Shown: piece after piece, positions 3,292 through 64,000 of the stretch | Layout: each line of letters begins with the position of its first letter | Numbering within the stretch: the first letter of the stretch is position 1 | NCBI RefSeq assembly: GCF_035994945.1 | Contig: NZ_CP108677.1 | Location: forward strand, 6,386,001 to 6,450,000 | DNA length: 64,000 nt | Direction: 5' to 3' | Origin: Streptomyces sp. NBC_01216 | GTDB lineage: Bacteria; Actinomycetota; Actinomycetes; Streptomycetales; Streptomycetaceae | The notes under the pieces: generated by a model | What the model was told of the DNA's origin: nothing | The model's input: the letters and a program-made list of their open reading frames with translations, nothing else | The model's database searches: none | Translations under genes and position numbers: made by a program

Positions 3292-4845
3292 GTGAGCACC
3301 GTCCGACTGCTTGCCGCGGCCGGGTTGGCGGCGCTGCTGGGCGCCGCGGCCCCCGGACCATCGCCGCCCCCGCCCCAGCCACCGGCCCAGCTCGACGACG
3401 CGGACGTGGCCCGCGCCGTCGACCGACTCGACGGGGTCGTCGAGGCAGCCATGAAGCGCACCGGGGTCCCGGGTGTGGCCGTCGCAGTCGTCCACGACGG
3501 CAAGGTCGTCCATCTCCAGGGATACGGCGTCCGTAAGGCCGGCGAGAAGGCCGTCGTAGACGCCGACACCGTCTTCCAGCTCGCCTCCGTCTCGAAACCG
3601 ATCGCCTCCACCGTGGTCTCCGGAGCCGTGGGCACCGAGGGCTGGACCGCACCCGTCTCCCCGAACCTGCCCGATTTCCGGCTGAAGGACCCGTGGGTCA
3701 CCACCCACGTGACGGCCGCCGATCTCTTCGCGCACCACAGCGGTCTTCCCGACCACGCCGGTGACCTCCTGGAAGACCTCGGCTACGACCGCGCGTACAT
3801 CCTGTCCCACCTGCGCTACGAGCCACTCGCCCCGTTCCGCGCGAGCTACGCCTACACCAACTTCGGTCTGACGGCCGCGGCCCAGGCCGTCGCCGACGAA
3901 CAGGGCGTTTCCTGGGAGAAGCTCGCCGCCGACACCCTCTACGAGCCGGCCGGGATGAACTCCACCAGCTCGCGCTTCGAGGACTTCGAGAAGGCCGCCG
4001 ACCGCGCCTATGGCCATGTGAAGGCCGACGGTGCCTGGAAGCCCCGCTACGTCCGGGACCCGGACGCGCAGTCGCCCGCCGGAGGCGTCAGCTCCACCGC
4101 CCGTGACATGGCCACCTGGCTGCGCCTGCAGCTCGCGAACGGCAAGCTGGACGGCCGCCAGATCATCGACGCGGACGCTCTGGAACGCACCCACTGGCCC
4201 GAATCGGTCGCCGCCCCGCCGCGCGCACCCGCCGGCCGGACCGGCTTCTACGGCCTGGGCTGGAACGTGAGTTACGACGACGAGGGCCGGCTCAGGCTCT
4301 CGCACACCGGAGCGTTCGCCCAGGGCGCGCACACCAACGTGACGATGCTGCCCGGCGAGCAACTCGGCATCGTGGTCCTCACCAACGCCGCACCGGTCGG
4401 CGTCGCCGACGCCGTCGCCCTCGACTTCTTCGACATCGCGCAGACCGGTGAGGTCAGCCGCGACTGGATCCCCCTCGTCGACGCCGTGTACCGGCAACAG
4501 GCCGACGAGGCGCGCTCGGAGACCGACTACGCCCAACCCCCGTCCGCTGCCTCGCCGGCGCGGGCCGCCGACACCTACACCGGTGTCTACGACAACGCCT
4601 ACTACGGGAGGGCGGAGGTCGTCGTCGGCGCGGACGGTGTTCTGACGCTCCGTCTGGGCCCGGAGCCGCGGTCGTTCCCGCTGACGCACTACGACGGCGA
4701 CACGTTCAGCTTCGAGACCACGGGAGAGAACGCCGTCGGCCGCACCGGGGTCACCTTCACCCCGGACGGGAAGTCCTTCACCGTCGAGTACCTGGACACC
4801 CGGGGACTCGGCACCTTCACCCGCGTCGCAGGGGCGGGCGACTGA
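3292..4845 (+). CDS. Secreted beta-lactamase-family serine hydrolase
   Basis: A ~517-residue class C beta-lactamase / penicillin-binding-protein fold (Pfam Beta-lactamase). The sequence shows SVSK (the SxxK catalytic serine and lysine), YTN (the YxN tyrosine) and a later HTG (the KTG-like triad). The first ~25 residues are hydrophobic with an Ala-rich end, followed by a Pro-rich linker, so it is probably secreted. The C-terminal ~100 residues form a lipocalin-like beta domain common in this family. The start is uncertain: GTG at 3292 or TTG at 3280, neither with a strong ribosome site. The natural substrate (peptide, ester or cell-wall fragment) is unknown. The stop codon is part of a palindromic repeat. 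Confidence 0.85.
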   Translation: MSTVRLLAAAGLAALLGAAAPGPSPPPPQPPAQLDDADVARAVDRLDGVVEAAMKRTGVPGVAVAVVHDGKVVHLQGYGVRKAGEKAVVDADTVFQLASVSKPIASTVVSGAVGTEGWTAPVSPNLPDFRLKDPWVTTHVTAADLFAHHSGLPDHAGDLLEDLGYDRAYILSHLRYEPLAPFRASYAYTNFGLTAAAQAVADEQGVSWEKLAADTLYEPAGMNSTSSRFEDFEKAADRAYGHVKADGAWKPRYVRDPDAQSPAGGVSSTARDMATWLRLQLANGKLDGRQIIDADALERTHWPESVAAPPRAPAGRTGFYGLGWNVSYDDEGRLRLSHTGAFAQGAHTNVTMLPGEQLGIVVLTNAAPVGVADAVALDFFDIAQTGEVSRDWIPLVDAVYRQQADEARSETDYAQPPSAASPARAADTYTGVYDNAYYGRAEVVVGADGVLTLRLGPEPRSFPLTHYDGDTFSFETTGENAVGRTGVTFTPDGKSFTVEYLDTRGLGTFTRVAGAGD

Positions 4846-4881
4846 GAGCCTGTCGGGTGGCCTTCGGCCGACAGGCTCTGA
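4843..4881 (+). repeat. Stop-codon-abutting palindromic repeat, copy 1
   Basis: Perfect 12-bp arms AGAGCCTGTCGG (4845-4856) and CCGACAGGCTCT (4868-4879) around an 11-nt loop. It begins within the TGA stop of the serine hydrolase and is identical over 35 bp to the copy at 47,072-47,106. It could act as a transcription terminator, although no T-run follows. Confidence 0.85.
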
Positions 4882-4925
4882 GCCGAGAGGCGGGCGCCGG
4901 CCCGTCCGTCGTCCGGGCGCGGAGC

Positions 4926-5135
4926 ACGGTCTGCCAGGCGGCCGTGGTGACGGTGAACGGCTTCGTCGCCTTCTACCGGGGCGTCCAGCGCGTCGGCGTC
5001 GAACGGGCCACTCACCTCACCGGCATGATCCCGGTCGCCGCGGCGTCGACCGCTCCCTTCGTCGGCAACCGGGGCTTCGGTCTTTCGCAAGCCGCCGGCA
5101 GCGTGCTCGTGGCGGCCGGAGCGGCACGGGGACGG
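4926..5135 (+). pseudogene. Remnant of an EamA/DMT-family transporter
   Basis: The frame reads about 70 residues that resemble the C-terminal half of a drug/metabolite transporter: GFVAFYRGVQRVGVERA, then IPVAAASTAPFVG, then AAGSVLVAAGAA. There is no N-terminal half and no sensible start, because the frame runs back into the palindromic repeat at 4843-4881. I read it as a decayed fragment. The resemblance is by eye only. Confidence 0.4.
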
Positions 5136-5158
5136 GGCTGTTCGCGCGTGCGCGCCGA

Positions 5159-5989
5159 TCAGCCGCTGCAGTCCAGGATCACCCGCGCGACCAGGGCCGG
5201 GTCGTCGTTCATGGGGACGTGACCACAGCCCGGCAGCCGGACGAGACGCGCGCCGGGCACCGTGTGCTTGGCCCGGACACCCTGCCGGGGCAGTAGCAGC
5301 CGGTCGCGGCTGCCCCACGCGACGGTGACGGGCACGGCCGGGACGTCGTCGGCGAACCGCACGGTACGGCCCGCCTCCAGGGTCTGCCGAAAACCGGTGG
5401 CCTCGCGCAGGGCGAGCGTCTCGGCCACCACCGCCCGCGGTGAACGGCGCCCGGGGCGGGCGTAGATCGTGCTGGTCAGGGCGGTACGTCCGACGGTGCT
5501 GCGGGAGAGCCGCTCGATCAGCGACACCGGCATCGAGAGGGCGGCGGCGCGCATCGCCCGCAGTGTCCCGAACGCGTAGCGCCGCTCGCCCTCCGACCAG
5601 AACCCGGCCGGGGACAGCGCCGTCACCGAGCGTGCGAGCTTCTCCCGGCCGAGCTCCAGAGCGAGCAGCCCGCCCAGCGAGTTTCCGGCCACGTGCGGCC
5701 GCTCGATGCCGATCGCCTCGCAGAACGCCCCGAGGACGGGCACCACCGAGGCCAGGTCGTAGGCGTGGCCGTCCGGGAGCGCCGGTGACGCCCCGAATCC
5801 GGGCAGGTCGACGGCGACGACGTCACGTTCGGCGGCGAGGATGTCGAGCACCGGTTCCCACGCCTGCCAGTGGTGGCCGATGCCGTGGAGCAGCAGCAGA
5901 GGTGCTCCCGCGCCCCGGCGCTCGTAGGCCACGGAGGCCGTGCGCGCTCCCCCGGGGGAAGCGATCGGGAATGAGATCTGTGCGGACAT
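5159..5989 (-). CDS. Alpha/beta-fold hydrolase
   Basis: A 276-residue cytoplasmic alpha/beta hydrolase. It shows the oxyanion HG motif (LLLHGIGHH), the nucleophile elbow GNSLGG with the catalytic serine, an acidic residue in WGSRDRLLLP and the histidine in GCGHVP. The family includes esterases, lipases and C-C hydrolases, and the substrate is not predictable. The ATG at 5989 has GGAG eight nucleotides upstream (GGAGCAGTCGC). A longer frame reaches 6013 without a better ribosome site. A TACCG/CGGTA inverted repeat 40-51 bp upstream suggests control by a TetR-type repressor. Confidence 0.85.
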   Translation of the reverse strand: MSAQISFPIASPGGARTASVAYERRGAGAPLLLLHGIGHHWQAWEPVLDILAAERDVVAVDLPGFGASPALPDGHAYDLASVVPVLGAFCEAIGIERPHVAGNSLGGLLALELGREKLARSVTALSPAGFWSEGERRYAFGTLRAMRAAALSMPVSLIERLSRSTVGRTALTSTIYARPGRRSPRAVVAETLALREATGFRQTLEAGRTVRFADDVPAVPVTVAWGSRDRLLLPRQGVRAKHTVPGARLVRLPGCGHVPMNDDPALVARVILDCSG

Positions 5990-6028
5990 GCGACTGCTCC
6001 CTGTCTTAGACACCCTGTCAGCAAGAAT

Positions 6029-6287: not shown

Positions 6288-6463
6288 GGGCGTGCCCCAG
6301 TCGGCGCCGCCGCCCACCTCGCCCCGGCCCTGCCGTCGCGCCGTCCAGCGCCGCCTCCGGTCTCCGGGTCCGGGGCGATTCGCCACACATGCCGCACGGG
6401 GGTGCGAACGTCCCGTGAACGATCCGCGCCGGATGACCGGATTCGCGGACTTCCCCCGCAGGA

Positions 6464-53353: not shown

Positions 53354-54975
53354 GCCGTCTCTCCTTCCAGTTCGGGTACGTCCCCGGCCGGCACGGAATC
53401 GTGCGCGGTGGATGCGACGCCCTCCGAGGCGCCGACCGGAGCCGGAGACCCGGCGGGGTCCCCGGGCCCCGCGCCGGCGGTGGGCCGGGCCGGGCGCCCT
53501 CCGTCGGTCTCGCGGGTCACGACCGCCCGGTAGCGCGGATCGTCGCGCAGCAGCGCGCGATGCGTCCCCACGGCCGCCACCGCGTCCCCGTCGAGCAGGA
53601 CGACCCGGTCGGCGAGGTCGAGCAGTAGCGGTGACGAGGTCAGCACCACCGTCGTCGCGCCCGCCCGCAGTCGTCTGACGCCCGCCGCGACCCGGGCCTC
53701 GGTGTGCGAGTCCACCGCGGAGGTCGGCTCGTCGAGGACGAGCACCTCCGGGTCGGTGACCAGGGAGCGGGCCAGGGCGAGCCGCTGGCGCTGGCCGCCC
53801 GAGAGCGACCGGCCGCGTTCGGTGATCCGAGTCCGCAGAGGGTCGCCGCCGGAGTCCGCGGATGCCTGGGCGAGGGCGTCGAGCACGTCCCCGCACTCGG
53901 CGGCCGCCAGCGCGTCCCGCGGGCGGACCGTGCCCGGCGAGGGCACGTCCAGCAGTTCGCGCAACGTCCCCGACAGCAGCACCGGGTCCTTGTCCTGCAC
54001 CAGGACCGCCGTCCGTGCCGAGTCGAGCGCCAGTTCGTCGAGCGGCACAGCACCCAGCAGCACCGAGCGGTGCCCGGTGCCCGGATCGGTCGGGTGCCCG
54101 CCGAGCCGCTCCGCCAGCCGTCCGGCGGCGTCCGGGTCCCCGCACACCACCGCGGTGAAGCCGCCGGCCGGAGCCAGCAGTCCGGTCACCGGGTCGTACA
54201 GGTCGCCGGACGCCTTGCGCCCCTCCTCGCCGCGCGCCGGGCCACTCGTGGAGCGGGTCAGCGCCAGCACCCGGGCGGCGCGCCTCGCGGACGGCCGGGA
54301 GAAAGAGAACGCCATCGCGATCTCCTCGAAGTTCCGCAACGGATGGTGGGTCAGCATCACCGTGCCGTAGACGGTGACGAGCTGACCGACCGTGATCCGC
54401 CCGTCCAGGGCGAGGCGTGCCCCGTGCGCCACCACCACGATGAGCAGGACACCCGGCAGCAGGACCTGGATCGCCGCGATCAGCGCCCACATGCGGGCGC
54501 TGCGGACGGCGGCCCGACGCACCTCCTGCGAGGCGGCGCGGTAGCGGCCGAGGAACAGCTCCTCGCCGCCGATGCCGCGCAGGACGCGAAGCCCCGCCAC
54601 CGTGTCGGAGGCCAGCTCGGTGGCCCGGCCCGCCTTCTCGCGCTGTACGTCGGCCCGTCGGGTCGCCCGGGGGAGAAGCGGCAGCGCGGCGAGCGCGAGG
54701 ACGGGCACGCCGACGGCGACGACGACGCCCAGCGCGGGCTGGTAGACCATCAGACCGACGCAGACCGCGACCAGGGTCAGGGCCGCCGCGGCGAAGCGCG
54801 ACAGCGCCTCCACGAACCAGCCGATCTTCTCGACGTCCCCGGTGGACACCGCGACGACCTCACCCGCGGCGACCCGGCGGGTCAGCAGCGAACCGAGTTC
54901 CGCGGTCTTGCGGGAGAGCAGTTGCTGCACCCGCGCGGCGGCCGTGATCCAGTTGGTGACCGCGTACTGGATGGG
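53350..54975 (-). pseudogene. ABC exporter half-transporter, 5' end removed by the integrated element
   Basis: The frame encodes about 540 residues of an ABC exporter subunit but has lost its N-terminus, and a stop at 54,985-54,987 closes the frame just upstream. Recognisable coding ends near [18 protein letters not shown]; roughly the first 80-100 residues should lie beyond the far end of the element. The ATPase domain has a canonical signature (LSGGQRQR) and Walker B (VLVLDEPTS). The Walker A is replaced by [13 protein letters not shown], and the switch His position reads LTSSPLL. A truncated protein could start at GTG 54930. Confidence 0.85.
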
Positions 54976-55016
54976 ATTACGGCATCACTCAGAGCCATCT
55001 ACCGAGGTCAGAGTAG
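54960..55016. other. Element-chromosome junction (approximate attL)
   Basis: Host coding similarity stops at about 54,975 and the integrase gene begins at 55,017-55,035, so the left attachment site must lie in this interval. The crossover dinucleotide cannot be fixed without the empty site or the right end. Base composition drops from here rightward. Confidence 0.6.
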
Positions 55017-55034
55017 GTGGAACGAGGAGTCGAG

Positions 55035-56720
55035 TTGACAGACCAGAGTGTCACACTCCAACCTGCATCCATGAACAAAAGTCTCACACTCCAACTTCCT
55101 GCACGCCCCAAGTCGGACACGCTCCGGCTCCTGGGCGAAGTTCGGCTGTCCCGTGAGACTGAGACGAGCACGAGCCCCGAGCGGCAGCACGAGTCCATCG
55201 ACGGCATCGTGAAGATGGTCCTGGGCACCCTCGTCCACGTCTGTGACGACCTTGATGTCTCCGGCCGGGTGTACCCGCAGCACCGGCCGAAGCTCGGGCG
55301 CTGGTTCCGCGCTCTCGAACCGGCCTGCGAGACCTCCGAGTGCTGGCACACCCCCGACGAGCCCTGCATGGGGCAGTGGGATGCCCTCGTGGCCTGGAAG
55401 ATGGACCGGATCACCCGCCGCGCCCTCCACTTCCACACCCTCATGGAATGGATGAAGAAGTACGGCAAGGCCATCATCACCTCCGACGGCGTGAACACCA
55501 CGACTAAGGCCGGCCGTCAGATGGCCGAGATGATGGCCATGGTCGCCTCCTGGGAGTGGGAGGCCATTCAGGAGCGCAACCAAGGGGCCGCGGAGAAGAT
55601 GCGGCAACTCGGCCGATGGAAGGGCGGCGTCGTCCCCTACGGCTACAAGGCTGTACCGAGCCCCGTACACGACGAGGGCTGGTTCCTCGTCTTCGAGGAC
55701 GACACGATCCGCCACGTACAGACGATGATCAACCTCTCCGAAGACCACTCGATGAAGGACATCACTGCCCACCTCAACGAGAACCGGATCGTGAGCCCGA
55801 GTGAGTGGCGGAGGCGCAATCAACTGATAGCCAAGGGCGAGATCACCCCCGAAGAGGCGGCACAGCGCGACCCCGGGCGCTGGAATCAGTCCACCGTGCA
55901 CGTCATCCTTACGAACCGCGTCCTCACAGGCGAGTCTTGGAAGGACGGGAAGCCGATCCGAGGCAAGGACGGCCTTCCCGTGATCCGAGCGCAGGCTCTG
56001 ATGTCCAAGCCTGACTTCGAAGCCATGCTTCGGCGCTTCAAGACCCGGAACAAGGCCCAAGGGACCGTCACCAAGAACGCGACAGACCTCCGAGAGGTCG
56101 CCTACTGCATGAACTGCCTTGCTGTCCTCTACGAATCGAACTCAAGCAGGACCCGGAACGGCAAGACCCAGCACTACAACTACTTCCGGTGCTCCACGAA
56201 CAACACTCCTGGGGCCAAGTGCCACGAGGATGCCAAGAACATGAACGGTCATGAACTGAAAGCCCTCGTGGAGAAGTACTTCCTGAACGAAGTCGGAGCC
56301 GAAGACGCTCAGGTGAAGGTCTTCGTGCCTGGAAACGATGTGGCAGCCGAGAAGGACCGGTACGAAACCGCCCTCAAGGAACTATCCGAGGAGTGGGACA
56401 TGGAGCTCTACGACTATGAGGGGGGAAGGCAAGATTACTTGAGCCGGAAGAAGAACCTCATGGAAAGGTTGAAAAAGGTCGAAACGGCAGAAATGGTGAA
56501 GCCTCACCATGAATGGCAGTCAATGGGGAAGACCTACGCGGAAGCCTGGGCTGAGATGAGCTGGAAGGAGCGCGGCGACCTGCTCCGGAAGTGCGGAGTG
56601 AAGGTCCTGGCCTGGCCCACGCCTAAGCAGAGCGACCCTCCGCGCCTTCTGCTCGACTTCCCGGACGACATGCTGGATCGACTCCGAGAGCACGTGACGG
56701 TCAGTTCACTCAAGGGCTGA
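55035..56720 (+). CDS. int: Large serine integrase
   Basis: A ~561-residue site-specific recombinase of the large serine type. An N-terminal catalytic domain has EVRLSRETETSTSPERQ with the serine nucleophile region, then AWKMDRITRRALHFHTLMEWM. The recombinase domain follows (GVVPYGYKAV; NQSTVHVILTNRVLTGESW). A zinc ribbon (CMNCLAVLY ... YNYFRCS ... AKC) and a coiled-coil segment near residues 420-480 complete the family. TTG 55035 has GAGGAG 5 nt upstream. GTG 55017 and ATG 55071 are alternatives. Two copies of the GTTGGARTGTGAS motif sit reversed in its first codons, suggesting repression of the gene. Confidence 0.93.
   Translation: MTDQSVTLQPASMNKSLTLQLPARPKSDTLRLLGEVRLSRETETSTSPERQHESIDGIVKMVLGTLVHVCDDLDVSGRVYPQHRPKLGRWFRALEPACETSECWHTPDEPCMGQWDALVAWKMDRITRRALHFHTLMEWMKKYGKAIITSDGVNTTTKAGRQMAEMMAMVASWEWEAIQERNQGAAEKMRQLGRWKGGVVPYGYKAVPSPVHDEGWFLVFEDDTIRHVQTMINLSEDHSMKDITAHLNENRIVSPSEWRRRNQLIAKGEITPEEAAQRDPGRWNQSTVHVILTNRVLTGESWKDGKPIRGKDGLPVIRAQALMSKPDFEAMLRRFKTRNKAQGTVTKNATDLREVAYCMNCLAVLYESNSSRTRNGKTQHYNYFRCSTNNTPGAKCHEDAKNMNGHELKALVEKYFLNEVGAEDAQVKVFVPGNDVAAEKDRYETALKELSEEWDMELYDYEGGRQDYLSRKKNLMERLKKVETAEMVKPHHEWQSMGKTYAEAWAEMSWKERGDLLRKCGVKVLAWPTPKQSDPPRLLLDFPDDMLDRLREHVTVSSLKG
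55049..55062 (-). promoter_or_regulatory. GTTGGARTGTGAS motif, copy a (in int 5' end)
   Basis: On the minus strand: GTTGGAGTGTGACA. It lies inside the first codons of int and overlaps the palindrome GAGTGTCACACTC. Confidence 0.65.
55081..55095 (-). promoter_or_regulatory. GTTGGARTGTGAS motif, copy b (in int 5' end)
   Basis: On the minus strand: GTTGGAGTGTGAGAC, 32 bp from copy a and in the same orientation, about three helical turns apart. Confidence 0.65.
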
Positions 56721-56771
56721 CCGGGTGCGAACTCGCTGGATCGCCTATTTTGTAGCGTGGACTGTACTGCG

Positions 56772-56784
56772 GTTAGTTCATTCA
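56772..56784 (+). repeat. GTTAGTTCATTCA repeat, copy 1
   Basis: GTTAGTTCATTCATTCATG, about 50 bp after the int stop. The other copies are at 57,212, 57,317 and (reversed) 57,395. Confidence 0.6.
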
Positions 56785-56805
56785 TTCATGACTGTTGCTT
56801 CATCC

Positions 56806-56827
56806 CCCGCCCCCACGAGGGGGCGGG
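56806..56827 (+). terminator. Hairpin terminator after int
   Basis: CCCGCCCCC (56,806-56,814), ACGA loop, GGGGGCGGG (56,819-56,827). A perfect 9-bp GC stem 85 bp past the int stop. Confidence 0.7.
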
Positions 56828-56916
56828 CCGGCGCTCAAACCGGTCCGATGATGCCCTCCTGGGTGGGGTAAGGTCAGCTTGTCCTGGACGGCCCGCAGTA
56901 CACGGCCAGGACCAAG

Positions 56917-56953
56917 GACCCCTTCGTCGGCCTCGGTCGGTGAGGGGGTCTTT
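56917..56953 (+). terminator. Rho-independent terminator
   Basis: GACCCC (56,917-56,922) pairs with GGGGTC (56,945-56,950) around a 22-nt GC-rich loop that can fold further (TCGGCC/GGTCGG), followed by TTTCT. Just before it, GTCCTGG (56,881-56,887) and CCAGGAC (56,906-56,912) form another hairpin. Confidence 0.65.
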
Positions 56954-57211
56954 CTGTTGGTTGAGACCTCGCTCATGAAGGCATGTAACCCCCCTCAAAA
57001 GAAATGTCGGCGTCTTTAGCCTGCCGACTGGACACTAGCCCTCACGAAAGAGACCCGTATCACATCAACTGGCAGTTGATTCGAGCCTGCGGAGCCGGTA
57101 AAGGGCGAAAATTCGCCCCCTAAGCGCTGTGCAGGGCCATCCAGGGCCACAAGAGAGTCCGGGGAGAGGTTTTGGGTGGGTAGGTGCCGGCGGGCACTCA
57201 GGGGCCCGTCA

Positions 57212-57221
57212 GTTAGTTCAT
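57212..57221 (+). repeat. GTTAGTTCAT repeat, copy 2 (partial)
   Basis: The first ten bases of the repeat family, then divergence. Confidence 0.45.
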
Positions 57222-57316
57222 ACCCGTACACGATCGAAGGAAGGCACCCCTGGTGGGTCCTTTGAATGAATGCACAGGTATTACCCCCGTATGCATATGC
57301 GTGTGCGTGTGTGCGA

Positions 57317-57408
57317 GTTAGTTCATTCACTATGTGGTGGTTAATGCGCAATATCTCTAACGCCATTCCAGCTAGCGCCCGATATTCACTGAGAGTGAAT
57401 GAACTAAC
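57317..57408. repeat. GTTAGTTCATTCAC inverted pair (copies 3 and 4)
   Basis: GTTAGTTCATTCAC at 57,317-57,330 and its exact reverse complement GTGAATGAACTAAC at 57,395-57,408: perfect 14-bp arms separated by 64 bp. Such spacing suits protein binding with looping better than a simple RNA hairpin. Confidence 0.7.
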
Positions 57409-57813
57409 TGTAATCGCTGGGTATCCATGCCTATGCGGAGCGTTACGGAATGAGCGTGTCGATATGTAGTGACAGGAATCACATTTCAATGACACATATA
57501 GCACGCTCGGGAATGTGCTAGCGGTCAAGGGAGGTGTGTATTGCATCACTAATAGGGCACAGGTTCTCAGGGTGCGCATTCTGTAGATGTCCACCATGGA
57601 GTGCGGCTGGATATTGTAGGGTGTCCACATAGACATGTCGGGGCGGGTGTGTATTTTAGGGCCCATTGGTGTGACGCTGATCATGTAATTCCCTATTGAC
57701 ATTTGATGTGTTGCATGGTTTCGCGTGCGTCTCCCTTGATATTCAAGGGCTCTATGCGTGTTGATACAAATGGCAATACATATCTTTGACGCGTGCATGA
57801 CGTAGACACTCAA

Positions 57814-57826
57814 GTTGGAATGTGAC
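57814..57826 (+). promoter_or_regulatory. GTTGGARTGTGAS motif, copy c
   Basis: GTTGGAATGTGAC followed by AGTG. Flanking ACACT (57,806-57,810) and AGTGT (57,827-57,831) are complementary. The GTG at 57,828 opens a short frame. Confidence 0.65.
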
Positions 57827-57827
57827 A

Positions 57828-58019
57828 GTGTTCTTCCTGTCAGCGAGACACCGACCGGAAAGGCCAACCGAAACCCACCCGCTAAGCGGGGATGCGGATA
57901 CGGGGCCTGAATCTGAATCCGGCATCAGGGACGCGACAGGAGCGCTTAGAGCGACTCCCAAAGGAAGTACGGACCACAACCTAGGTACTAGGAACAGGTC
58001 CCTGTGTAAGAGCCTCTAG
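57828..58019 (+). CDS. Possible small gene (63 residues)
   Basis: A GTG start two nucleotides past motif copy c gives a 63-residue basic/polar product (FFLSARHRPERPTETHPL ... SGIRDATGALRATP). There is no known family, and coding character is weak. The start-codon position relative to the motif matches the genes at 59,179 and 59,759, which is the main argument for it. Its 3' end overlaps a structured region, so it may instead be non-coding. Confidence 0.3.
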   Translation: MFFLSARHRPERPTETHPLSGDADTGPESESGIRDATGALRATPKGSTDHNLGTRNRSLCKSL

Positions 58020-58151
58020 GGCTTACAGGGAAACCGACTAGGAACATCACATAGGCCACACCTGGCGAAGCGAATAACCAGGGAGTGAGCGCGTACCGGA
58101 GCGGAGTGAATCCCGCTATGAACGGCGCGCTACGTGAGCGGATAGCGGGAT
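57987..58151 (+). ncRNA. Candidate structured RNA region
   Basis: Three hairpins in a row: TCCCTG(TG)TAAG with CTTACAGGGA (57,999-58,031), CCTGG with CCAGG (about 58,061-58,082), and ATCCCGCTAT with ATAGCGGGAT (58,110-58,151, perfect 10 bp). A direct repeat ACTAGGAACA occurs at 57,987 and 58,037. No open frame fits it well. The strand is assumed from gene direction. Confidence 0.35.
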
Positions 58152-58343
58152 GTGATCGCCCCGACATGGATAGATCAATGCACTACTGAGATTGACTCTC
58201 ACACACCCAATCGACACGACGTGTCCAGCGTACCGGGACAAAGCCACGAGCAACGGCCCACAGTGCGTCTCTAAGCGTCTGAGAGTGGATGTGTGGGGGT
58301 GAGTGACAGTAAGGCACTCAGAACTACTGAAAGGGGAACAAGG

Positions 58344-59162
58344 GTGGAACGTATTGCGGAGGACTCGCCCCGTAAGGGCTTCCGTATCAGCCGCTTTGCT
58401 CGTGAATATGCGGAGCGCTCACCGCACACCTATGGTGGCGGGGAATTCGGAACGTACGGCATGTGGGACATGCGCGGAAGCGCGGAAAGCCTCACGGTGG
58501 CCAAGGGATTCGGTCTGATCGAAGACGCCGACGGGGCGCCCCTGTCTGACTGGGATTCGCGTGGCTACTACGGCTGCGACTGCACCGAACGCACGAACCG
58601 CGTGAATGCGGAAGTGGCGCACGCTGCCTTTGAAGCGGCTGGGGTCGAGCACTGGGAATGGCGAGGCATGATCGCATTTGATGCGGGCGACATTCGAGGG
58701 CTGAGAATTGCCCGTCAGATCTCCGATTGCCTGGCCGGGTGGTCGATCCTGGACGACGACCGGCATTCTGAATTGGAGTGGGATGATGCGTGCAAGATGA
58801 TCGAGGATCAGTACACCCTGCCCGAAGGTGTGGAGGCTGGCGACGTGATTAACAAAATGCCGGAAGTCCCGCACTGCTCTAACTGCTCATCCTGTGACGT
58901 TGACGACGCAATGGAAGCCCTCGGATATCTCCAGTGCCAGGACTGCGACACCTGGTTGAAGACTGAGACTGAAGGTGCAATGTGCCGCGACTGCACGGAG
59001 CGAGAGGAGGAGGGCGAATGCACCTGCGTAGCAAGCTACGTGGATACGCTTAAGCACACGGGGACCTACGCCACTATGGCCGACGTGCGGACGATTCAGC
59101 GCTCTTGCGACACTTGCTATCCGGAGATCTGGCCTCACGTCTCCCTAACCCTCGCAGGCTGA
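58344..59162 (+). CDS. Element protein with C-terminal zinc-binding cysteine cluster
   Basis: A ~272-residue acidic protein. The N-terminal half (RKGFRISRFAREYAERSPHTYGG, then WDMRGSAESLTVAKGFGL) resembles no family I can name. The C-terminal third is cysteine-rich: CSNCSSC, CQDCDTW, CRDCTE, CTC, and finally CDTCYPEIW, probably two zinc sites. GTG 58344 has AAAGGGG 7 nt upstream, so I prefer it to GTG 58293 or 58299. It is first in the rightward gene string. Confidence 0.75.
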   Translation: MERIAEDSPRKGFRISRFAREYAERSPHTYGGGEFGTYGMWDMRGSAESLTVAKGFGLIEDADGAPLSDWDSRGYYGCDCTERTNRVNAEVAHAAFEAAGVEHWEWRGMIAFDAGDIRGLRIARQISDCLAGWSILDDDRHSELEWDDACKMIEDQYTLPEGVEAGDVINKMPEVPHCSNCSSCDVDDAMEALGYLQCQDCDTWLKTETEGAMCRDCTEREEEGECTCVASYVDTLKHTGTYATMADVRTIQRSCDTCYPEIWPHVSLTLAG

Positions 59163-59165
59163 AAG

Positions 59166-59180
59166 GTTGGAATGTGACAT
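59166..59180 (+). promoter_or_regulatory. GTTGGARTGTGAS motif, copy d (ends at an ATG)
   Basis: GTTGGAATGTGAC then ATG. The motif supplies the GGAA ahead of the start codon of the next gene, so it covers the ribosome-binding site. Confidence 0.7.
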
Positions 59181-59322
59181 GAAGGATTGTCTGGCCGGTG
59201 CGCGACTCAAGGAAAAGATGACATGCGACGTGGAGGGTCACTGTCCGGTCAAATCGCGTGAAGTGTGGGAATGGCACGTGACCGTGTGCCTCACGTGTAA
59301 GGAAGAGGAGAGCAATGGGTAA
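59179..59322 (+). CDS. Small cysteine-containing element protein (47 residues)
   Basis: MKDCLAGARLKEKMTCDV, then HCPVKSREVWEW, then CLTCKEEE. Four or five cysteines including CxxC suggest a single zinc site. It starts directly after motif copy d and overlaps the next gene by 8 bp. Function unknown. Confidence 0.65.
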   Translation: MKDCLAGARLKEKMTCDVEGHCPVKSREVWEWHVTVCLTCKEEESNG

Positions 59323-59539
59323 GGGTGTAAGTAAAGGAATGGTGGAGCACACAAAGGTGCTCTATGGTGGTCGCATAGGTTGCTACGTCCTCGGGTGCGA
59401 GGAACCCGCGACGCGATGGATTGATATGGAGCGCTACGGGATACGCCGCTGGCTGTCCACTTCATACTGTGAGGCTCACGGGGACTCTGATATGGCCGAC
59501 CCTCACCATGTGTACCGAGTGCGAAAGATCGAGAACTGA
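59315..59539 (+). CDS. Small element protein (74 residues)
   Basis: Basic N-terminus (MGKGVSKGMVEHTKVLYGG), then CYVLGCEEPATRW, and a later CEAHGDSDMADPHH that resembles a Cys/His metal site. GGAAGAGGAG lies just upstream of ATG 59315. It is translationally coupled to the preceding gene. Function unknown. Confidence 0.7.
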   Translation: MGKGVSKGMVEHTKVLYGGRIGCYVLGCEEPATRWIDMERYGIRRWLSTSYCEAHGDSDMADPHHVYRVRKIEN

Positions 59540-59562
59540 GCAGAATTCAGGCACCCTCGAAA

Positions 59563-59577
59563 GTTGGAGTGTGAGAT
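59563..59577 (+). promoter_or_regulatory. GTTGGARTGTGAS motif, copy e
   Basis: GTTGGAGTGTGAGAT, with the next start codon (ATG 59580) two nucleotides beyond. GGAG in the motif would serve as its ribosome site. Confidence 0.7.
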
Positions 59578-59579
59578 CG

Positions 59580-59723
59580 ATGGATAGTGAAGTTTTCCAC
59601 GAGCCGTGTGCCGTGTGTGCTGCGGACTGCCCAGAAGAAGATCTGACGCCCGTGGGTATCGGCGGAGTGGAAGAGATGGTCTGTTACCGCTGCGCCCCGG
59701 GGTGTGAGGCAGTCGAGGGCTGA
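59580..59723 (+). CDS. Small double-CxxC element protein (47 residues)
   Basis: MDSEVFHEPCAVCAADCPEE, then PVGIGGVEEMVCYRCAPGCE. Two cysteine pairs separated by ~25 residues are typical of a zinc ribbon. The only ribosome site is inside motif copy e. Function unknown. Confidence 0.7.
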   Translation: MDSEVFHEPCAVCAADCPEEDLTPVGIGGVEEMVCYRCAPGCEAVEG

Positions 59724-59745
59724 GGGTCTTTAGTCGGGTCCGCAT

Positions 59746-59760
59746 GTTGGAATGTGACAT
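59746..59760 (+). promoter_or_regulatory. GTTGGARTGTGAS motif, copy f (in a hairpin, ends at an ATG)
   Basis: GTTGGAATGTGAC then ATG. Flanks TCCGCATGT (59,739-59,747) and ACATGCGGA (59,757-59,765) pair perfectly over 9 bp, placing the motif core in the loop and the ATG in the stem. Confidence 0.7.
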
Positions 59761-59800
59761 GCGGATGCGGCTATGGACTCTCAGACAGGCGAGAGTGTGA
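59759..59800 (+). CDS. Possible 13-residue leader peptide
   Basis: ATG 59759 at the end of motif copy f opens MRMRLWTLRQARV and stops at TGA 59798-59800. The ATG of the next gene follows with no gap. It could couple or attenuate translation of that gene. Too short to be sure. Confidence 0.3.
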   Translation: MRMRLWTLRQARV

Positions 59801-60061
59801 ATGAAAGGTAGGGGAATGGAAACCGTCCACCTTGACCAGATGGACCGAAACGAACTGACTACGGGTAAGCGGGTCCGTATCAAGTTGCCCCACTGTCGGT
59901 ATACGGGTCGGTCGGCTGGAAACTACCGAGGGACGATCGAATACGTGAAGGGTGACCATGTGGGAATCTGGGTGCCCTTTAAGGGATACGGTGCGGCCGA
60001 TGGATTCCTTACCGGCGCGTCGCGCATGGACGGTCACGGTACCTGGATTGAGGGCCGCTGA
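59801..60061 (+). CDS. Small element protein (86 residues)
   Basis: MKGRGMETVHLDQMDRNE, then a beta-rich middle (TTGKRVRIKLPHCRYTG; GTIEYVKGDHVGIWVPF) like a small SH3/KOW-type barrel. Start ATG 59801 or ATG 59816, which has AGGGG just before it. It is followed after 2 bp by the next gene. Function unknown. Confidence 0.65.
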   Translation: MKGRGMETVHLDQMDRNELTTGKRVRIKLPHCRYTGRSAGNYRGTIEYVKGDHVGIWVPFKGYGAADGFLTGASRMDGHGTWIEGR

Positions 60062-60063
60062 AT

Positions 60064-60255
60064 ATGCAGACATACGAGATTGAGGTCTACCAGTCGGCCA
60101 CCTACCGCTTTGAGGTCGAAGCAGAGAACGAGGAAATGGCGCAGGGCAGGGCGGGCGAGTTCTGGAGCACCGTTCCCGCCTCGGAAGAGGTCAAGTATCT
60201 GCACAGCGTCTATGACTCGCTCGTGGACAGCGTGACTCTAAAGGGTGGTAAATGA
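60064..60255 (+). CDS. Small element protein (63 residues)
   Basis: An acidic, beta-alpha-type peptide (MQTYEIEVYQSATYRFEVEA, then EEMAQGRAGEFW), like the small MQ-YEV-type proteins common in phages and plasmids. It overlaps the next gene by 4 bp. Function unknown. Confidence 0.65.
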   Translation: MQTYEIEVYQSATYRFEVEAENEEMAQGRAGEFWSTVPASEEVKYLHSVYDSLVDSVTLKGGK

Positions 60256-60803
60256 TGCGGCTCAATCCGTGCGGAATGGTTGAGTGCTCGGACTGCGGAA
60301 TGGACCTCGGGGCCTATCCGTCCGACTACGACGTGGGCCCGGAAGGCGATGTGTACTGCGGTCACTGCGAGAACGAGCGGCACGAATGCCCGGTACCTGT
60401 GGATGAATCGGCTGCGTCCAAGGTGCTCCGCGACGCTATCGCCCGGATCAAGTGGCATGAGTGTCAGTGGCGCCTAAAGGGCGTCGGCCCGGACCATCGC
60501 GAGTTCCTGCGGTCGCTCCTAGGTGAGTTCCAGACCCAGGCCCAGGCCGGCCGGGGGAGTGACCGGCCTTACACAGTCGTCATGGATTGGGAATCGGACT
60601 TCTTCGATCACGGCGCTGACGACGTTCGCAGCGAGTACGGCCAAGACGATCCCGTGACGTTTCACGTGTGGGCCCCGAATGCATCCGACGCAAGTGATGC
60701 CGCTCGGGAGCGTGCAGAAGAGACCTTCAAGGAAGCGGCCGATTATCTGGGGAGCGTAGCGGTTCTCCATGGACACGCGCCCCTGGTGCGAGACGGAGAG
60801 TAA
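60252..60803 (+). CDS. Element protein with N-terminal zinc ribbon (183 residues)
   Basis: It begins MMRLNPCGMVECSDCGMDLG with a second pair VYCGHCENERHEC, giving a zinc ribbon in residues ~7-46. The rest is acidic and helical, with VVMDWESDFFDHGADD. ATG 60252 or 60255. I do not recognise the C-terminal part. Confidence 0.7.
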   Translation: MMRLNPCGMVECSDCGMDLGAYPSDYDVGPEGDVYCGHCENERHECPVPVDESAASKVLRDAIARIKWHECQWRLKGVGPDHREFLRSLLGEFQTQAQAGRGSDRPYTVVMDWESDFFDHGADDVRSEYGQDDPVTFHVWAPNASDASDAARERAEETFKEAADYLGSVAVLHGHAPLVRDGE

Positions 60804-60808
60804 CCCCA

Positions 60809-61129
60809 ATGACGATGATTCAAGAGATCACCCGCGCGATCCGCTCCGACGTGGTGAAGATGGGCGAGCGTGCGGCGGCGCTTAGCGGCGAGGTTCACGA
60901 ACCGGTCTACGTCTGGACTCGCGAGGACATATCTAACGCGGTCAACAACGGTGTGGACCTGGTGGCTGATGAACTCGCCGGGAGTGAGCGGGATGCGGAC
61001 CTGATGAACATGGTTGTAAACGCCGCCATGACCCTTCTGGAGAACCCGCACTACACCTTGGATGAGGTCATCCAGGAGTGTTACGACGAGGACCCGGAAG
61101 AGGTTCGCTCGTGGTGGTCGGGATGGTAA
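60809..61129 (+). CDS. Small element protein (106 residues)
   Basis: An acidic, mostly helical protein (MIQEITRAIRSDVVKMGERAAAL; NNGVDLVADELAG; EEVRSWWSGW). Start ATG 60809, or ATG 60815. It overlaps the next gene's ATG by 7 bp. Function unknown. Confidence 0.65.
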   Translation: MTMIQEITRAIRSDVVKMGERAAALSGEVHEPVYVWTREDISNAVNNGVDLVADELAGSERDADLMNMVVNAAMTLLENPHYTLDEVIQECYDEDPEEVRSWWSGW

Positions 61130-61365
61130 GCCCCGCCGCCGTTCAGATAAACATGTGGGTCACGTTTAAGACCATTCACGGCCACAGTCTCACTGGGCAA
61201 GTGATCGGCTGCGTATACGGCAATGACGGAAAGATGAAGCGCGACAACATCACGCATCTCGTTATCCGTGGCCGGTACGACGTAGAGCAGAACCGTCCCA
61301 TCTTCCACCCGCTCTCACACCCGGACGTGATCCCGCTGGATCGCATCCGCAAGTACAAGGGATAA
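61123..61365 (+). CDS. Small element protein (80 residues)
   Basis: A beta-rich small protein: NMWVTFKTIHGHSLTGQVIG, HLVIRGRYDV, VIPLDRIRKYKG. It resembles small barrel folds seen in many phage early proteins. ATG 61123 overlaps the previous gene; ATG 61153 is the alternative. Function unknown. Confidence 0.6.
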   Translation: MVSPAAVQINMWVTFKTIHGHSLTGQVIGCVYGNDGKMKRDNITHLVIRGRYDVEQNRPIFHPLSHPDVIPLDRIRKYKG

Positions 61366-61371
61366 AAAACC

Positions 61372-61905
61372 ATGCGTCAGATCTATGCCGCCTGTCTCGC
61401 CTCGTACAACCACGGCATCCTTCACGGTGAGTGGATCGATGCGACACAGGACCCTGATTCGATCGGTCATGAGATCGAGCTCATGTTGAAAGCCTCCCCG
61501 ATACCGGGGGCGGAAGAGTTTGCAATCCACGACTACGAAGACTTCGGCGGCATCCAGCTTGGGGAGTACGAGTCGCTTGAAGAACTCCACCTGATCGCGC
61601 TCGCGCTGGACGACTTCCCGGCCGTGGTGGTACGGCACTTCCACGGGGAGGTGGACGCGGAAGACCTCTACGAGACCTGCCAAGACCGCTACATCGGCAA
61701 GGTTGAAGAGGAGGCCGGGCCGGAGGAGAACGCGTACGCCGCGTACATCCTCGCAGAGGAAGACCACTTCTGGGATGAACTCCCGAAGCAGTACCGCAGC
61801 CACATGCGGGCCATCGCAATCAGCGAGGCGGAGGAACGGCTTATCTGCGGTGAGACGGCTCTGTATGAGGGTGCCGGTACTTGGCACTTCGTACGTGACT
61901 ACTGA
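61372..61905 (+). CDS. ArdA-like antirestriction protein
   Basis: A 177-residue very acidic protein. The start RQIYAACLASYNHGILHGEWID and the EFAIHDYEDFGG segment match the ArdA family, whose DNA-mimic proteins block type I restriction enzymes. Abundant Asp/Glu (EEEAGPEENAY; AEEDHFW) fits DNA mimicry. The last ~30 residues are less typical. It would protect incoming element DNA. Confidence 0.8.
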   Translation: MRQIYAACLASYNHGILHGEWIDATQDPDSIGHEIELMLKASPIPGAEEFAIHDYEDFGGIQLGEYESLEELHLIALALDDFPAVVVRHFHGEVDAEDLYETCQDRYIGKVEEEAGPEENAYAAYILAEEDHFWDELPKQYRSHMRAIAISEAEERLICGETALYEGAGTWHFVRDY

Positions 61906-61925
61906 TCTTTAGCGGCTGGACATCA

Positions 61926-61951
61926 GGGGCTCAAGTTGGAATGTGAGCCCC
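61926..61951 (+). promoter_or_regulatory. GTTGGARTGTGAS motif, copy g (in a hairpin)
   Basis: The motif GTTGGAATGTGAG is at 61,935-61,947. Flanks GGGGCTCA (61,926-61,933) and TGAGCCCC (61,944-61,951) pair perfectly over 8 bp. A reversed degenerate copy (GGGCTCACTCCAACACC) follows at about 61,969-61,985, so a larger stem is possible. The next gene starts at 62,002. Confidence 0.65.
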
Positions 61952-62001
61952 TGGTTTCGAGTCTCTAAGGGCTCACTCCAACACCAAGAAGGAACCGAGA
62001 A

Positions 62002-62241
62002 GTGGGACGCATGAAGGCGTACAACTCAGACCGCGCGGCGGTGCGTTGGGAAGCGGAAGAGGCGGCGCATGAGCCGACACACGAGGGGCGTATGACCCAC
62101 ATGGAGCGGGTCTGGGAGATGTGCGGCACGTCCGCGAACGGATACCACTGCCCGACCGCAGTGGCAGAAATGCTGGTGAAGGAAGCGGTGTCCGCCTTCC
62201 TGGACTCGCGCACCACCCTGATCCTGGACGAGGTGGCTTGA
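62002..62241 (+). CDS. Small element protein (79 residues)
   Basis: GRMKAYNSDRAAVRWEAEEA, then MERVWEMCGTSANGYHC, helical with a possible single Cys/His site. GTG 62002 has AAGGA 9 nt upstream. It is separated by 1 bp from the next gene. Function unknown. Confidence 0.65.
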   Translation: MGRMKAYNSDRAAVRWEAEEAAHEPTHEGRMTHMERVWEMCGTSANGYHCPTAVAEMLVKEAVSAFLDSRTTLILDEVA

Positions 62242-62242
62242 G

Positions 62243-62701
62243 ATGGATTTCCTCATCCCGGAACAGCGAATGTGTGACGTGTGCTGTGTCCCTCTCAACG
62301 GATACAGGGGCCTCACCTTCGGGGATGTCTCCTACCGTCACCCGGATTGGGAGGGAGTCACGTGGGACCACGACGCGGCCCCTGTCCCCGTGGACCCACA
62401 ACGGCTGGCTTCCATCTGTGACTTCTGCTCTTCCGGCCGCACGGTGACCGCCTTCGAGACGGTCAAGGCAATCGTCATGATTCAGGGCCCCTACACGAAT
62501 GTGTTCTCCGATCCGTGGGATGCGTGCGAGCGATGCGCGGTCCACATTCGGAGGCGGACGCTGCACCTGTTGCTCGACCGTGTGGTCGCGGTACTGCCTG
62601 GGGACCTCAACCGTCCACAGAGGCGGGAGCGTCGCCGTGAACTCAAGGCGCTTTACGTGAAGTTCTTTGCGGCGGAGCCGATCGAGATTGGGAAGCGTTG
62701 A
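62243..62701 (+). CDS. Element protein with multiple CxxC pairs (152 residues)
   Basis: It has CDVCCVPLNGYRGL, then ICDFCSSGRTV and ACERCAVHIRRRTL, three cysteine pairs likely to bind one or two zinc ions. The C-terminus is Arg-rich and helical (PQRRERRRELKALYVKFF), suggesting nucleic-acid binding. Function unknown. Confidence 0.7.
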   Translation: MDFLIPEQRMCDVCCVPLNGYRGLTFGDVSYRHPDWEGVTWDHDAAPVPVDPQRLASICDFCSSGRTVTAFETVKAIVMIQGPYTNVFSDPWDACERCAVHIRRRTLHLLLDRVVAVLPGDLNRPQRRERRRELKALYVKFFAAEPIEIGKR

Positions 62702-62702
62702 C

Positions 62703-62993
62703 ATGCGACCGACTGAACAGACCGTGATCCGCAACGCGGCCGACTGCTGGCGGGCGTCCGCGCCCGGCTCGAAGAAGTGGGTCTACGACGCGCACGGTCG
62801 CGCGTCCCTGGTCGAGGCGGACCTGTTGGAACGGCTCGATGCTCTCGGCTGGGCCATGCGGTACGTGGACGACTGGCGGGTGTACTACCCGGAGAGCCAC
62901 GCGGCTTGGGCGAAGGCCAGCGAGGAGGCCGGCCGTTCACTGGACCCGGAGAAGTGGCACCACGAGTGGGTCAAGGCAGGCAAGCCCCAATGA
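62703..62993 (+). CDS. Small element protein (96 residues)
   Basis: A Trp-rich small protein (NAADCWRASAPGSKKWVYD; LERLDALGWAMRYVDDWRV; KWHHEWVKAG). ATG 62703 follows the previous stop at once. It overlaps the next gene by 4 bp as ATGA. Function unknown. Confidence 0.65.
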   Translation: MRPTEQTVIRNAADCWRASAPGSKKWVYDAHGRASLVEADLLERLDALGWAMRYVDDWRVYYPESHAAWAKASEEAGRSLDPEKWHHEWVKAGKPQ

Positions 62994-63334
62994 AGGAGGC
63001 CGCAGCCGAAAACGTGAGCCTGGTCGAGTCGCTGCGGGTGGCGGTGCCGCTTCACATGATGCAGCTCGGTTCCCGCTCACCGGAGGAGCTGCAACGGATC
63101 GCGGTGGAGTCCGCCTCGGTCATCGGTTCCCAAGGGGACGTGTTGCAGTTCCGGTCCCCGAAGCGAGGCGAGACGGCGAAGGCGTTCAACGGCCTCGCAC
63201 GTGGGCTCGCTGCTGCCGCCCTGATCGCCTGGGGCGGTGCCACCTTCGCCGGCCTGCACTGGTGCACGGTCCGACGCTGTCCGGGTCCTGATGCCGAACA
63301 CCCCAATCCCACAGAAGGAAAGACGCATGAGTGA
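62990..63334 (+). CDS. Element protein with one C-terminal hydrophobic segment (114 residues)
   Basis: The N-terminal half is amphipathic and helical (SLVESLRVAVPLHMMQLG; PEELQRIAVESASVIG). Residues ~70-90 (LARGLAAAALIAWGGATFAGL) form a probable membrane segment, followed by CTVRRCPG. It overlaps the next gene by 8 bp. Function unknown. Confidence 0.65.
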   Translation: MKEAAAENVSLVESLRVAVPLHMMQLGSRSPEELQRIAVESASVIGSQGDVLQFRSPKRGETAKAFNGLARGLAAAALIAWGGATFAGLHWCTVRRCPGPDAEHPNPTEGKTHE

Positions 63335-63596
63335 TATCGACCTGTCCCGTTATCCCTGCCCTGTCGAAGAGTGTGACTTCTTCTTGGAGATGACCGTCCC
63401 CATGTACCTGGATGTCTGGGCGGACGAGGACGGGGCGGCGCACTTCACGTTCGCCGGAAGCGACACGCCCACCTTCTTTAGCTGCGGGGGGGAAGAAGCG
63501 CATGGGGTGTTGGACTTCCCCACGATTCTCGTGAACCAGGTAACGGAACGTCTCAACCTTGCTGAGACGGCGATGCACGAGGAGAACTACGGCTAA
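63327..63596 (+). CDS. Small element protein (89 residues)
   Basis: SDIDLSRYPCPVEECDFFLE and a later FFSCGGEEAHG give three spaced cysteines. The rest is acidic. AAGGA precedes ATG 63327 at a good distance. It is last of the string before a terminator. Function unknown. Confidence 0.65.
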   Translation: MSDIDLSRYPCPVEECDFFLEMTVPMYLDVWADEDGAAHFTFAGSDTPTFFSCGGEEAHGVLDFPTILVNQVTERLNLAETAMHEENYG

Positions 63597-63617
63597 CCGG
63601 ATTCGGTGGCTTTGATG

Positions 63618-63645
63618 AGGGCCCGGCTTCGGCCGGGCCCTTTGT
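63618..63645 (+). terminator. Rho-independent terminator
   Basis: AGGGCCCGGC and GCCGGGCCCT form a perfect 10-bp stem with a TTCG tetraloop, followed by TTGTC. It lies between the small-gene string and the lsr2-like gene. Confidence 0.85.
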
Positions 63646-63689
63646 CATGGCTGATCGAAACACGATCAGACGGATAGAGGGATACACGC

Positions 63690-64000
63690 ATGGCTAAGAA
63701 GCAGGTCACGACCTACATTGACGACCTCGACGGCACGGAGTCCACTGACCCGCGCGAGATCCGAACGGTTGACTTCGGGATCGACGGGGCGCTGTACGAG
63801 ATCGACCTGACCGACGCGAACGCGGACCAGCTCCGCGAACTCCTCGCCCCCTACAAGGAAGCCGCACGCCGAACGGGCCAAGGGCAGACCCAGGCCGGCC
63901 GTCCCGAGGCCCGTCCTTCGGTCCGCGGTGGTGACGCCCTGAACGCGAAGACGGTCCGGGCCTGGGCGAAGGAGCACGGGTACGAGCTGAACGATCGTGG
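63690..64000 (+). CDS. lsr2: Lsr2-like nucleoid-associated protein (partial)
   Basis: It is cut by the right edge after ~103 residues. The N-terminal dimerisation domain (MAKKQVTTYIDDLDGTE; TVDFGIDGALYEIDL; LRELLAPYKEAARR), a variable linker and the start of the C-terminal DNA-binding domain (TVRAWAKEHGYELNDRG) match Lsr2, an H-NS-like silencer of AT-rich DNA in actinobacteria. The RGR-type AT-hook begins exactly at the edge. Its place on the element suggests self-silencing of element genes or interference with host Lsr2. It follows its own terminator-bounded promoter region. Confidence 0.88.
   Translation, partial: MAKKQVTTYIDDLDGTESTDPREIRTVDFGIDGALYEIDLTDANADQLRELLAPYKEAARRTGQGQTQAGRPEARPSVRGGDALNAKTVRAWAKEHGYELNDR

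Follow-up and report, generated by a model that had tools for sequence, protein, structure and literature searches.

Within a 64,000-nucleotide (nt) stretch of Streptomyces sp. NBC_01216 DNA (hereafter the window; C1:6386001-6450000 of the 7.72-Mb genome, window position 1 being C1:6386001), the 13-mer GTTGGARTGTGAS recurs in a prophage of about 57.5 kb. Comparison of this prophage with its relatives indicates that the immunity repressor encoded by the prophage itself very probably binds the 13-mer as an asymmetric site, at about 22 operators or stoperators that would silence the early and late operons. Judged from sequence, the site set represents putative operators and stoperators of a repressor of the type found in cluster A mycobacteriophages, of which hairpin-borne sites and a structured early RNA appear to be the unusual parts. 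The grounds from this analysis are the sites themselves, their statistics, the homology and predicted fold of the repressor, synteny and the coordinated change of site and repressor in relatives; from these we infer binding, roadblocking and the choice of individual copies as promoter operators.

The expected target of the 161 amino acid (aa) repressor would be duplex DNA bearing AAGTTGGAATGTGACAC. In the lysogen, one repressor monomer would occupy each of the about 22 sites. Initiation would be blocked where a site lies at a promoter, probably at 57814 (for a non-coding RNA and the first early genes), at a triple of sites ahead of the repressor gene and at the copy upstream of the integrase gene. 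The intergenic copies, as stoperators, would form one-way roadblocks to RNA polymerase and silence early and late operons. Once the lysogen is induced, or a cell without immunity is infected, the sites would be free and the operons read.

Distribution and orientation of the sites

The window contains seven exact copies of the 13-mer, at 55050-55062 and 55083-55095 on the minus strand and at 57814, 59166, 59563, 59746 and 61935 on the plus strand. This is the number given in the original prediction, an earlier note made from the window sequence alone, although its minus-strand coordinates were 1-2 bases low; the two reversed copies are near each other as described, but their starts are 33 bp and not 32 bp apart. 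Allowing up to two mismatches, 12 matches were found compared with 2.98 +/- 1.58 in 100 shuffles (0/100 reached 12), and order-2 Markov simulations of the element (n=30) gave no exact copies. A scan of the 7.72-Mb genome placed 15 of 15 exact copies inside the prophage span C1:6441050-6498377, so that a comparison with host DNA, proposed as a check of the motif, showed no exact copy elsewhere.

With near matches included, the element carries 22 well supported sites (15 exact) and some weak ones; two-mismatch matches at C1:6465883, 6497547, 6498406, 6447970 and 6444972 (the last inside a gene) were left out of the counts. The information of the sites is confined to about AAGTTGGAATGTGACAY, the extended consensus of the 13-mer, and an alignment of 23 sites showed no other conserved box in the 60 nt to either side. 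Eighteen of the 22 sites are wholly intergenic, two overlap a gene 3' end and two lie within genes, assuming that the integrase starts at its ATG; unaltered gene calls give 17 intergenic, two overlapping and three inside. The underlying gene set came from a simple caller, two small genes added by eye and a hand-set integrase start at C1:6441070 (6441071 changes no class). All five rightward copies in the window are intergenic (5/5), as had been claimed.

A same-strand gene lies ahead of 19 of the 22 sites. The three sites without an element gene ahead are the two integrase copies, which also oppose the integrase, and a right-end copy facing attR. All four late-region copies are on the minus strand like the late structural genes, three of them following T-runs, and the triple of sites precedes the repressor gene. 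A switch for integration and early genes, as first envisaged, is too narrow a description of this layout.

The relation of the copies to start codons held in part. Of two copies said to end at an ATG, the one at 59166-59178 (+) abuts the ATG of a plausible gene at 59179-59322, but the ATG that follows the copy at 59746 begins a frame of 13 codons within a hairpin arm. Two others had been placed one to four bases before a start: 59563-59575 (+) indeed lies 4 nt ahead of the ATG at 59580, whereas the GTG after 57814 falls in a conserved non-coding region. A degenerate reversed copy near 61,970 exists as a two-mismatch match at 61970-61982 (-); it is probably not a true site, being unconserved in four relatives and adjoining a hairpin arm.

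The large serine integrase gene (55071-56720, +) probably starts at the ATG at 55071, with TTG 55035 and GTG 55017 also possible. Whether both reversed copies lie in the first integrase codons, as suggested earlier, depends on this choice. From the ATG, the copy at 55050-55062 (-) is just upstream and the copy at 55083-55095 (-) covers codons 5-9; from the TTG or GTG, both are coding. The upstream copy lies between a TTGACA at 55035 and the ATG; in a relative, G145, the single reversed site is likewise flanked by TTGACA and, about 14 bp further on, by the ATG of the integrase. With the promoter identified by eye, this suggests that the integrase copies are promoter operators rather than stoperators, orientation then mattering less.

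The repressor candidate and its relatives

A search for the element's repressor, recommended with the original prediction, yielded a candidate at C1:6478168-6478653 (+), outside the window. The protein is homologous to L5 gp71 and the TipsytheTRex repressor, and its predicted fold consists of a helix-turn-helix (HTH) plus a Stoperator domain. Repressor relatives were detected in 10 of 295 genus genomes, its own included, and at two loci in genome contigs and four in viral contigs; these six loci seemingly represent four prophages, one of them that of G145. More than two near copies of the motif were present only in its own genome and in G145 among the 295, and the G145 repressor is the closest other one. 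G145 has 23 sites, mainly of the form GTTGGGATGTGA. Of the 22 own sites, 18 have a G145 partner at the corresponding gene edge, with 16 different G145 sites shared among them; no partner was found by gene edges for C1:6443814, 6445166, 6445563 and 6464239, and 6443814 was paired by alignment of the non-coding RNA.

Sites at equivalent places in relatives, named earlier as a test of the motif, were also found in four 20-kb loci around the relatives' repressors, with locus-wide shifts at positions 6, 7 and 13. Position 6 is G in 12 of 15 matches in L074 and 12 of 14 in L075, and position 7 is G in 13 of 13 in L073, a few of these matches (at up to two mismatches) being probably chance. When the whole records of three relatives were scanned, 19, 18 and 12 copies were counted, those of G295 (19) all falling inside some 55 kb of its 8.4-Mb genome. 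All five repressors compared have an identical recognition helix segment, QAVNKAL, and differ by class in the segment that follows the IPW motif. In TipsytheTRex, the region aligned with this post-IPW segment starts the Stoperator domain and contacts the variable middle of the site (PMC9283540), so the variable site bases may be read by the post-IPW segment. The relatives' repressors (56-83% identical) with their matched, slightly different sites form a natural panel for studying the two-domain reading of an asymmetric site. De novo motif searches recovered the own, Ibantik and R4 sites and were swamped by codon bias in other relatives. No convincing repeated site was found in G258, G030, G290, G239, G024 and a second G034 prophage, the last of which was outside one of the scans.

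The original prediction had noted a resemblance to mycobacteriophage stoperators. We follow this reading on several grounds: a repressor gene is present, the sites fit in number, orientation and position, host DNA lacks exact copies, and sites and repressor change together in relatives. Several observations weigh against it. A promoter scan ahead of the integrase recognised none, and the two integrase copies run opposite to the integrase gene; orientation is reported to matter for L5 stoperators (PMC9283540). At 57814, a sigma-70 scan recognised no convincing promoter, which is weak evidence in Streptomyces. The sequence match of the repressor in PDB is weak (E 0.027) and its model is middling, with a predicted local distance difference test score (pLDDT) of 74.9, a predicted template modelling score (pTM) of 0.57 and a root-mean-square deviation of 8.4 A. 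One copy (C1:6464239, one mismatch) lies inside a tape-measure-like gene, and L070 has the full own consensus at just 4 of 12 sites. Site identity exceeds flank identity in 44 pairs (0.87 vs 0.56), but the former is partly built in, the sites having been picked by pattern at up to two mismatches. The synteny partners are relatives, and shared site position is therefore partly descent. Finally, R45 and W50 of TipsytheTRex (taken as R and W of VTRQAVSW) aligned opposite G32 and K37. Because of this last difference the specificity of L5 and TipsytheTRex is not carried over: we rejected membership of their specificity group (A2), which requires GGTGGMTGTCAAG with R45/W50 contacts, for a repressor with the site AAGTTGGAATGTGACAY and residues G32 and K37.

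Other functions of the motif were weighed against repressor binding. RegA-type translational operators, raised in the original prediction, would imply an RNA-binding protein acting on the motif in mRNA at ribosome sites. The copy abutting an ATG at 59166, the one 4 nt ahead of an ATG at 59563 and the presence of some sites in RNA hairpin loops fit such a protein, but the distances from site to downstream start range from 0 to 3034 nt, with only 5 of 19 below 20 nt. Moreover, two sites overlap a gene 3' end, one precedes a non-coding stretch of about 500 nt, only 4 of 22 fold better than a z-score of -2, and the regulator changing in step with the site has the HTH fold of a DNA-binding protein. 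We consider translational operators very improbable, although no search aimed at a RegA homologue was made. That the motif is a promoter element read by a sigma factor of phage or host seems just as improbable, although no search aimed at a sigma factor was made. Many copies precede genes, three of the four copies in the late region come after T-runs, as expected of a promoter behind a terminator, and the motif contains GGAAT, which resembles a -35 box of extracytoplasmic function sigma factors. Against this, the 23 aligned sites lack a second box within 60 nt, and copies occur at gene 3' ends and in pairs or triples. The dispersed, element-specific and repeated nature of the sites would also suit replication, packaging or partition. 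This is the least probable of the three, next to negligible, as orientation follows transcription on both strands and it is another repeat, GTTAGTTCATTCATT, that clusters like iterons.

The candidate early non-coding RNA and the site-bearing hairpins

The repressor site at 57814-57826 (+) lies at the 5' end of a candidate conserved, structured non-coding RNA (57835-58309, +, a span given by predicted pairs and not by mapped ends). The region between 57814 and the first early gene has homologues in L106 (87%), L107, G145, G034 and Success, with a weak match in G030. An alignment of six sequences has 102 predicted pairs, 38 of them with a double change. In this alignment, from which the structure was also predicted, 90.1% of cells pair, whereas sliding leaves no more than 47.3% paired, and none of 500 shuffles reached any of five measures. 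A repressor site is present at the 5' end of the RNA in the own prophage, L106, L107 and G145; G034 and Success each have, there or close by, repeated sites of their own. Because of these positions we regard 57814 as the candidate operator of the early lytic promoter. A DNA search of 199 relatives' genomes with the non-coding RNA detected only its own genome, and the final 1.7 kb of R4 gave none with nhmmer; over 61 nt, the RNA does match Janus, SqueakyClean, Animus and GirlDinner.

Two copies in the window form the apical loops of covarying intercistronic hairpins, the site at 59746-59758 (+) in a type B hairpin (59720-59784, +; folding z -7.5) and the site at 61935-61947 (+) in a type A hairpin (61908-61969, +; z -5.1). 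Comparable places in relatives also have hairpins, with other stem letters, which brings the total to 12 in five prophages. In the following comparisons the unslid version has an advantage, as the structures were derived from the tested sequences. In the seven sequences of types B and C, 90.2% of cells are paired vs at most 46.2% when slid, and 8 of 16 pairs show double changes (reached by 10 of 500 shuffles); their extra pair types were not above shuffles (352 of 500 reached them, 96 of 500 in an enlarged set). For type A (5 sequences), 87.1% are paired vs at most 53.6%, with double changes in 6 of 28 pairs (2 of 500 shuffles) and with the outermost pairs broken in most relatives. Covariation of flanking stems, which had been proposed as a check, thus holds for types A and B/C, but most sites lie outside hairpins.

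The B/C model also detected hairpins without a site in G296 and G034 (E 5e-5 to 0.012); six of the seven B/C sequences with four site-less ones show 91.8% pairing vs at most 42.7% when slid. In its own genome the model found one place at E <=0.001. Given these site-less hairpins in other phages or prophages, we regard the hairpin as a separate family whose loop is a repressor site in some copies. Since most stoperators lie outside hairpins, the hairpins are an addition to the system and not its basis. A general role of hairpins in the motif was rejected, as only 4 of 22 own sites have z < -2. In the own prophage and relatives together, 15 of 84 sites have z < -2.5 (G296 sites in 3656-6000 being counted twice), 12 of which are the long early-region hairpins; controls gave 3 of 25 in R4 and 3 of 14 in Ibantik (25 of 33 and 14 of 16 predicted sites used).

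An initial hairpin pattern, CTTTAGTC...GGCTATGG, was too narrow: it matched only the own genome among the 295, and a reversed-pattern control had matches in some others. In viral DNA the hairpin pattern occurs in at least 120 stretches; 6 of 120 occurrences passed a pairing filter. L132 is the record of the relative G295 itself, L153 and L207 look right, and L136, L158 and L227 look like chance. L153 has the same sequence as part of Streptomyces phage LuckySocke, and Alone3 and GiJojo match it at 84-85% (sequence only). In LuckySocke the hairpin follows a stop codon and precedes the next gene (126/127), a placement that suggests an intercistronic RNA signal. Members of this family (window 59720-59784, L107:92-171, L059:13680-13769, L153:3384-3466) share a nearly invariant CUUU/AUGG core, with a U-G beside a U-U mismatch, between genes of Streptomyces phages or prophages, whether or not the loop site is present. 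A strong hairpin at window 63608-63651, GGCTTTGATGAGGGCCCGG..CCGGGCCCTTTGTCATGGC, ahead of the Lsr2-like gene resembles a distant member by eye; the model gave no match at E 1. An Rfam search of window 54900-64000 returned no match for the hairpins or non-coding RNA (only a sub-threshold one, E 0.99, outside these elements), nor did one of L153 and L107.

We tentatively propose, while considering it somewhat doubtful, that these are composite DNA/RNA elements in which the site was placed in the loop of an independent hairpin family. The same ~70 bp would act as a roadblock in the lysogen and as an RNA signal for processing, termination or a leader in the lytic state. Extrusion of the hairpin in DNA might compete with repressor binding, and 57814 might also gate the ~500-nt RNA as the first lytic transcript. 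The hairpin-borne sites pose the new question whether roadblock and RNA structure are built as one unit.

Known systems and other features of the prophage

The cluster A mycobacteriophages (L5 gp71, Bxb1 gp69, TipsytheTRex) have a homologous repressor with a two-domain fold like the one predicted here, and asymmetric 13-bp sites that are mostly intergenic and oriented with transcription, 24 in L5, 26 in TipsytheTRex and 34 in Bxb1 (PMC3029335, PMC9283540). At L5 Pleft, an early operator is followed by a non-coding RNA of about 500 nt that is described as abundant and toxic (PMC5712189); here, too, an early operator candidate precedes a non-coding RNA of about 500 nt. With this parallel, a second host genus becomes available for testing what the RNA at the master operator does. 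The systems differ in site sequence (GGTGGMTGTCAAG in L5, GTTACGWDTCAAG in Bxb1; PMC3029335), in repressor identity (26-36% among the matches listed, 40 of 93 phage records), in the host, which here is Streptomyces, and in the location of some sites in covarying hairpin loops.

For the R4-like (BD) Streptomyces phages a repressor-stoperator mechanism has been stated (PMC10276819), and R4 gp29 is annotated as a repressor 'similar to L5 gp71'. The R4 repressor gene likewise lies between late and early regions, and the R4 sites from our de novo search mostly run along gene direction, but their sequence is about ACTGTGCAAGTGTCACAA and the repressor is 28% identical in the alignment. Ibantik and Success, the nearest isolated phages by capsid (65%), have a mirror-image gene order with the repressor in the same place, and Success has the non-coding RNA in common; their site sequences differ. 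In Success (L007/L008), WAGTTGCCTCCTGGGTR occurs seven times, once with G in place of C, at 6361, 8125, 13823, 20420, 21301, 56606 and 56739; these copies are candidate repressor sites. The system described here would extend repressor-stoperator immunity to this Ibantik/Success-like prophage group.

Start-associated sequences (SAS) and their extended form (ESAS) in cluster K mycobacteriophages are likewise a 13-bp motif with inverted repeats by some copies. They are tied to start codons, about half adjoin inverted repeats, and their authors report little support for RNA hairpins (PMC3203893). In contrast, the site here lies inside a hairpin loop with covariation. A search of titles and the beginnings of abstracts, with mostly open-access coverage, returned no literature on such sites in Ibantik, Success or Ibantik-like prophages or on hairpin-borne stoperators.

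The prophage splits an ATP-binding cassette (ABC) transporter gene, with gene halves on either side of an 8-base core. The attL core candidate GTGACCGC at 54956-54963 (C1:6440956) recurs at C1:6498448 as attR; it is one of six 8-base matches and was picked since the split ABC reading frame continues across it. The gene order is integrase and small early genes (+), structural genes (-), repressor candidate (+) and replication genes (+). The first gene after the non-coding region is a candidate early gene, an open reading frame (ORF) at 58344-59162 (+). Profile matches back the Lsr2-like protein, capsid, portal, terminase subunits and repressor. Candidate names taken from sequence and the Ibantik/Success gene order, without profile matches, are endolysin, tape measure, RecB/Cas4-like exonuclease, DnaB-like helicase and DNA polymerase.

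The large terminase (C1:6475016-6476630, -) seemingly consists of two ORFs, as annotated in phage Ponzi (ATPase and nuclease). Between the repressor and the early genes, C1:6478759-6479843 (-) holds two opposite-facing genes for a 4HBT-type thioesterase and a protein with an MmyB-like ligand-binding domain, and G145 has similar ORFs at this place. A tRNA-Ala(CGC) lies between terminase genes and repressor at L002:17651-17722 (-), where Ibantik and Success also have tRNAs. Upstream of the repressor gene, five relatives share a conserved inverted repeat, GGCCCCGG..CCGGGGCC, between a tRNA-like stretch and the repressor sites. The second repeat, GTTAGTTCATTCATT, occurs at C1:6442773, 6443213, 6443318 and 6443399 (window 56773-57399), where the four copies cluster like iterons in the non-coding gap after the integrase, and at six further places. 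Similar repeats are present in G145, Ibantik, G034 and G258, and the repeat may be an origin or partition site.

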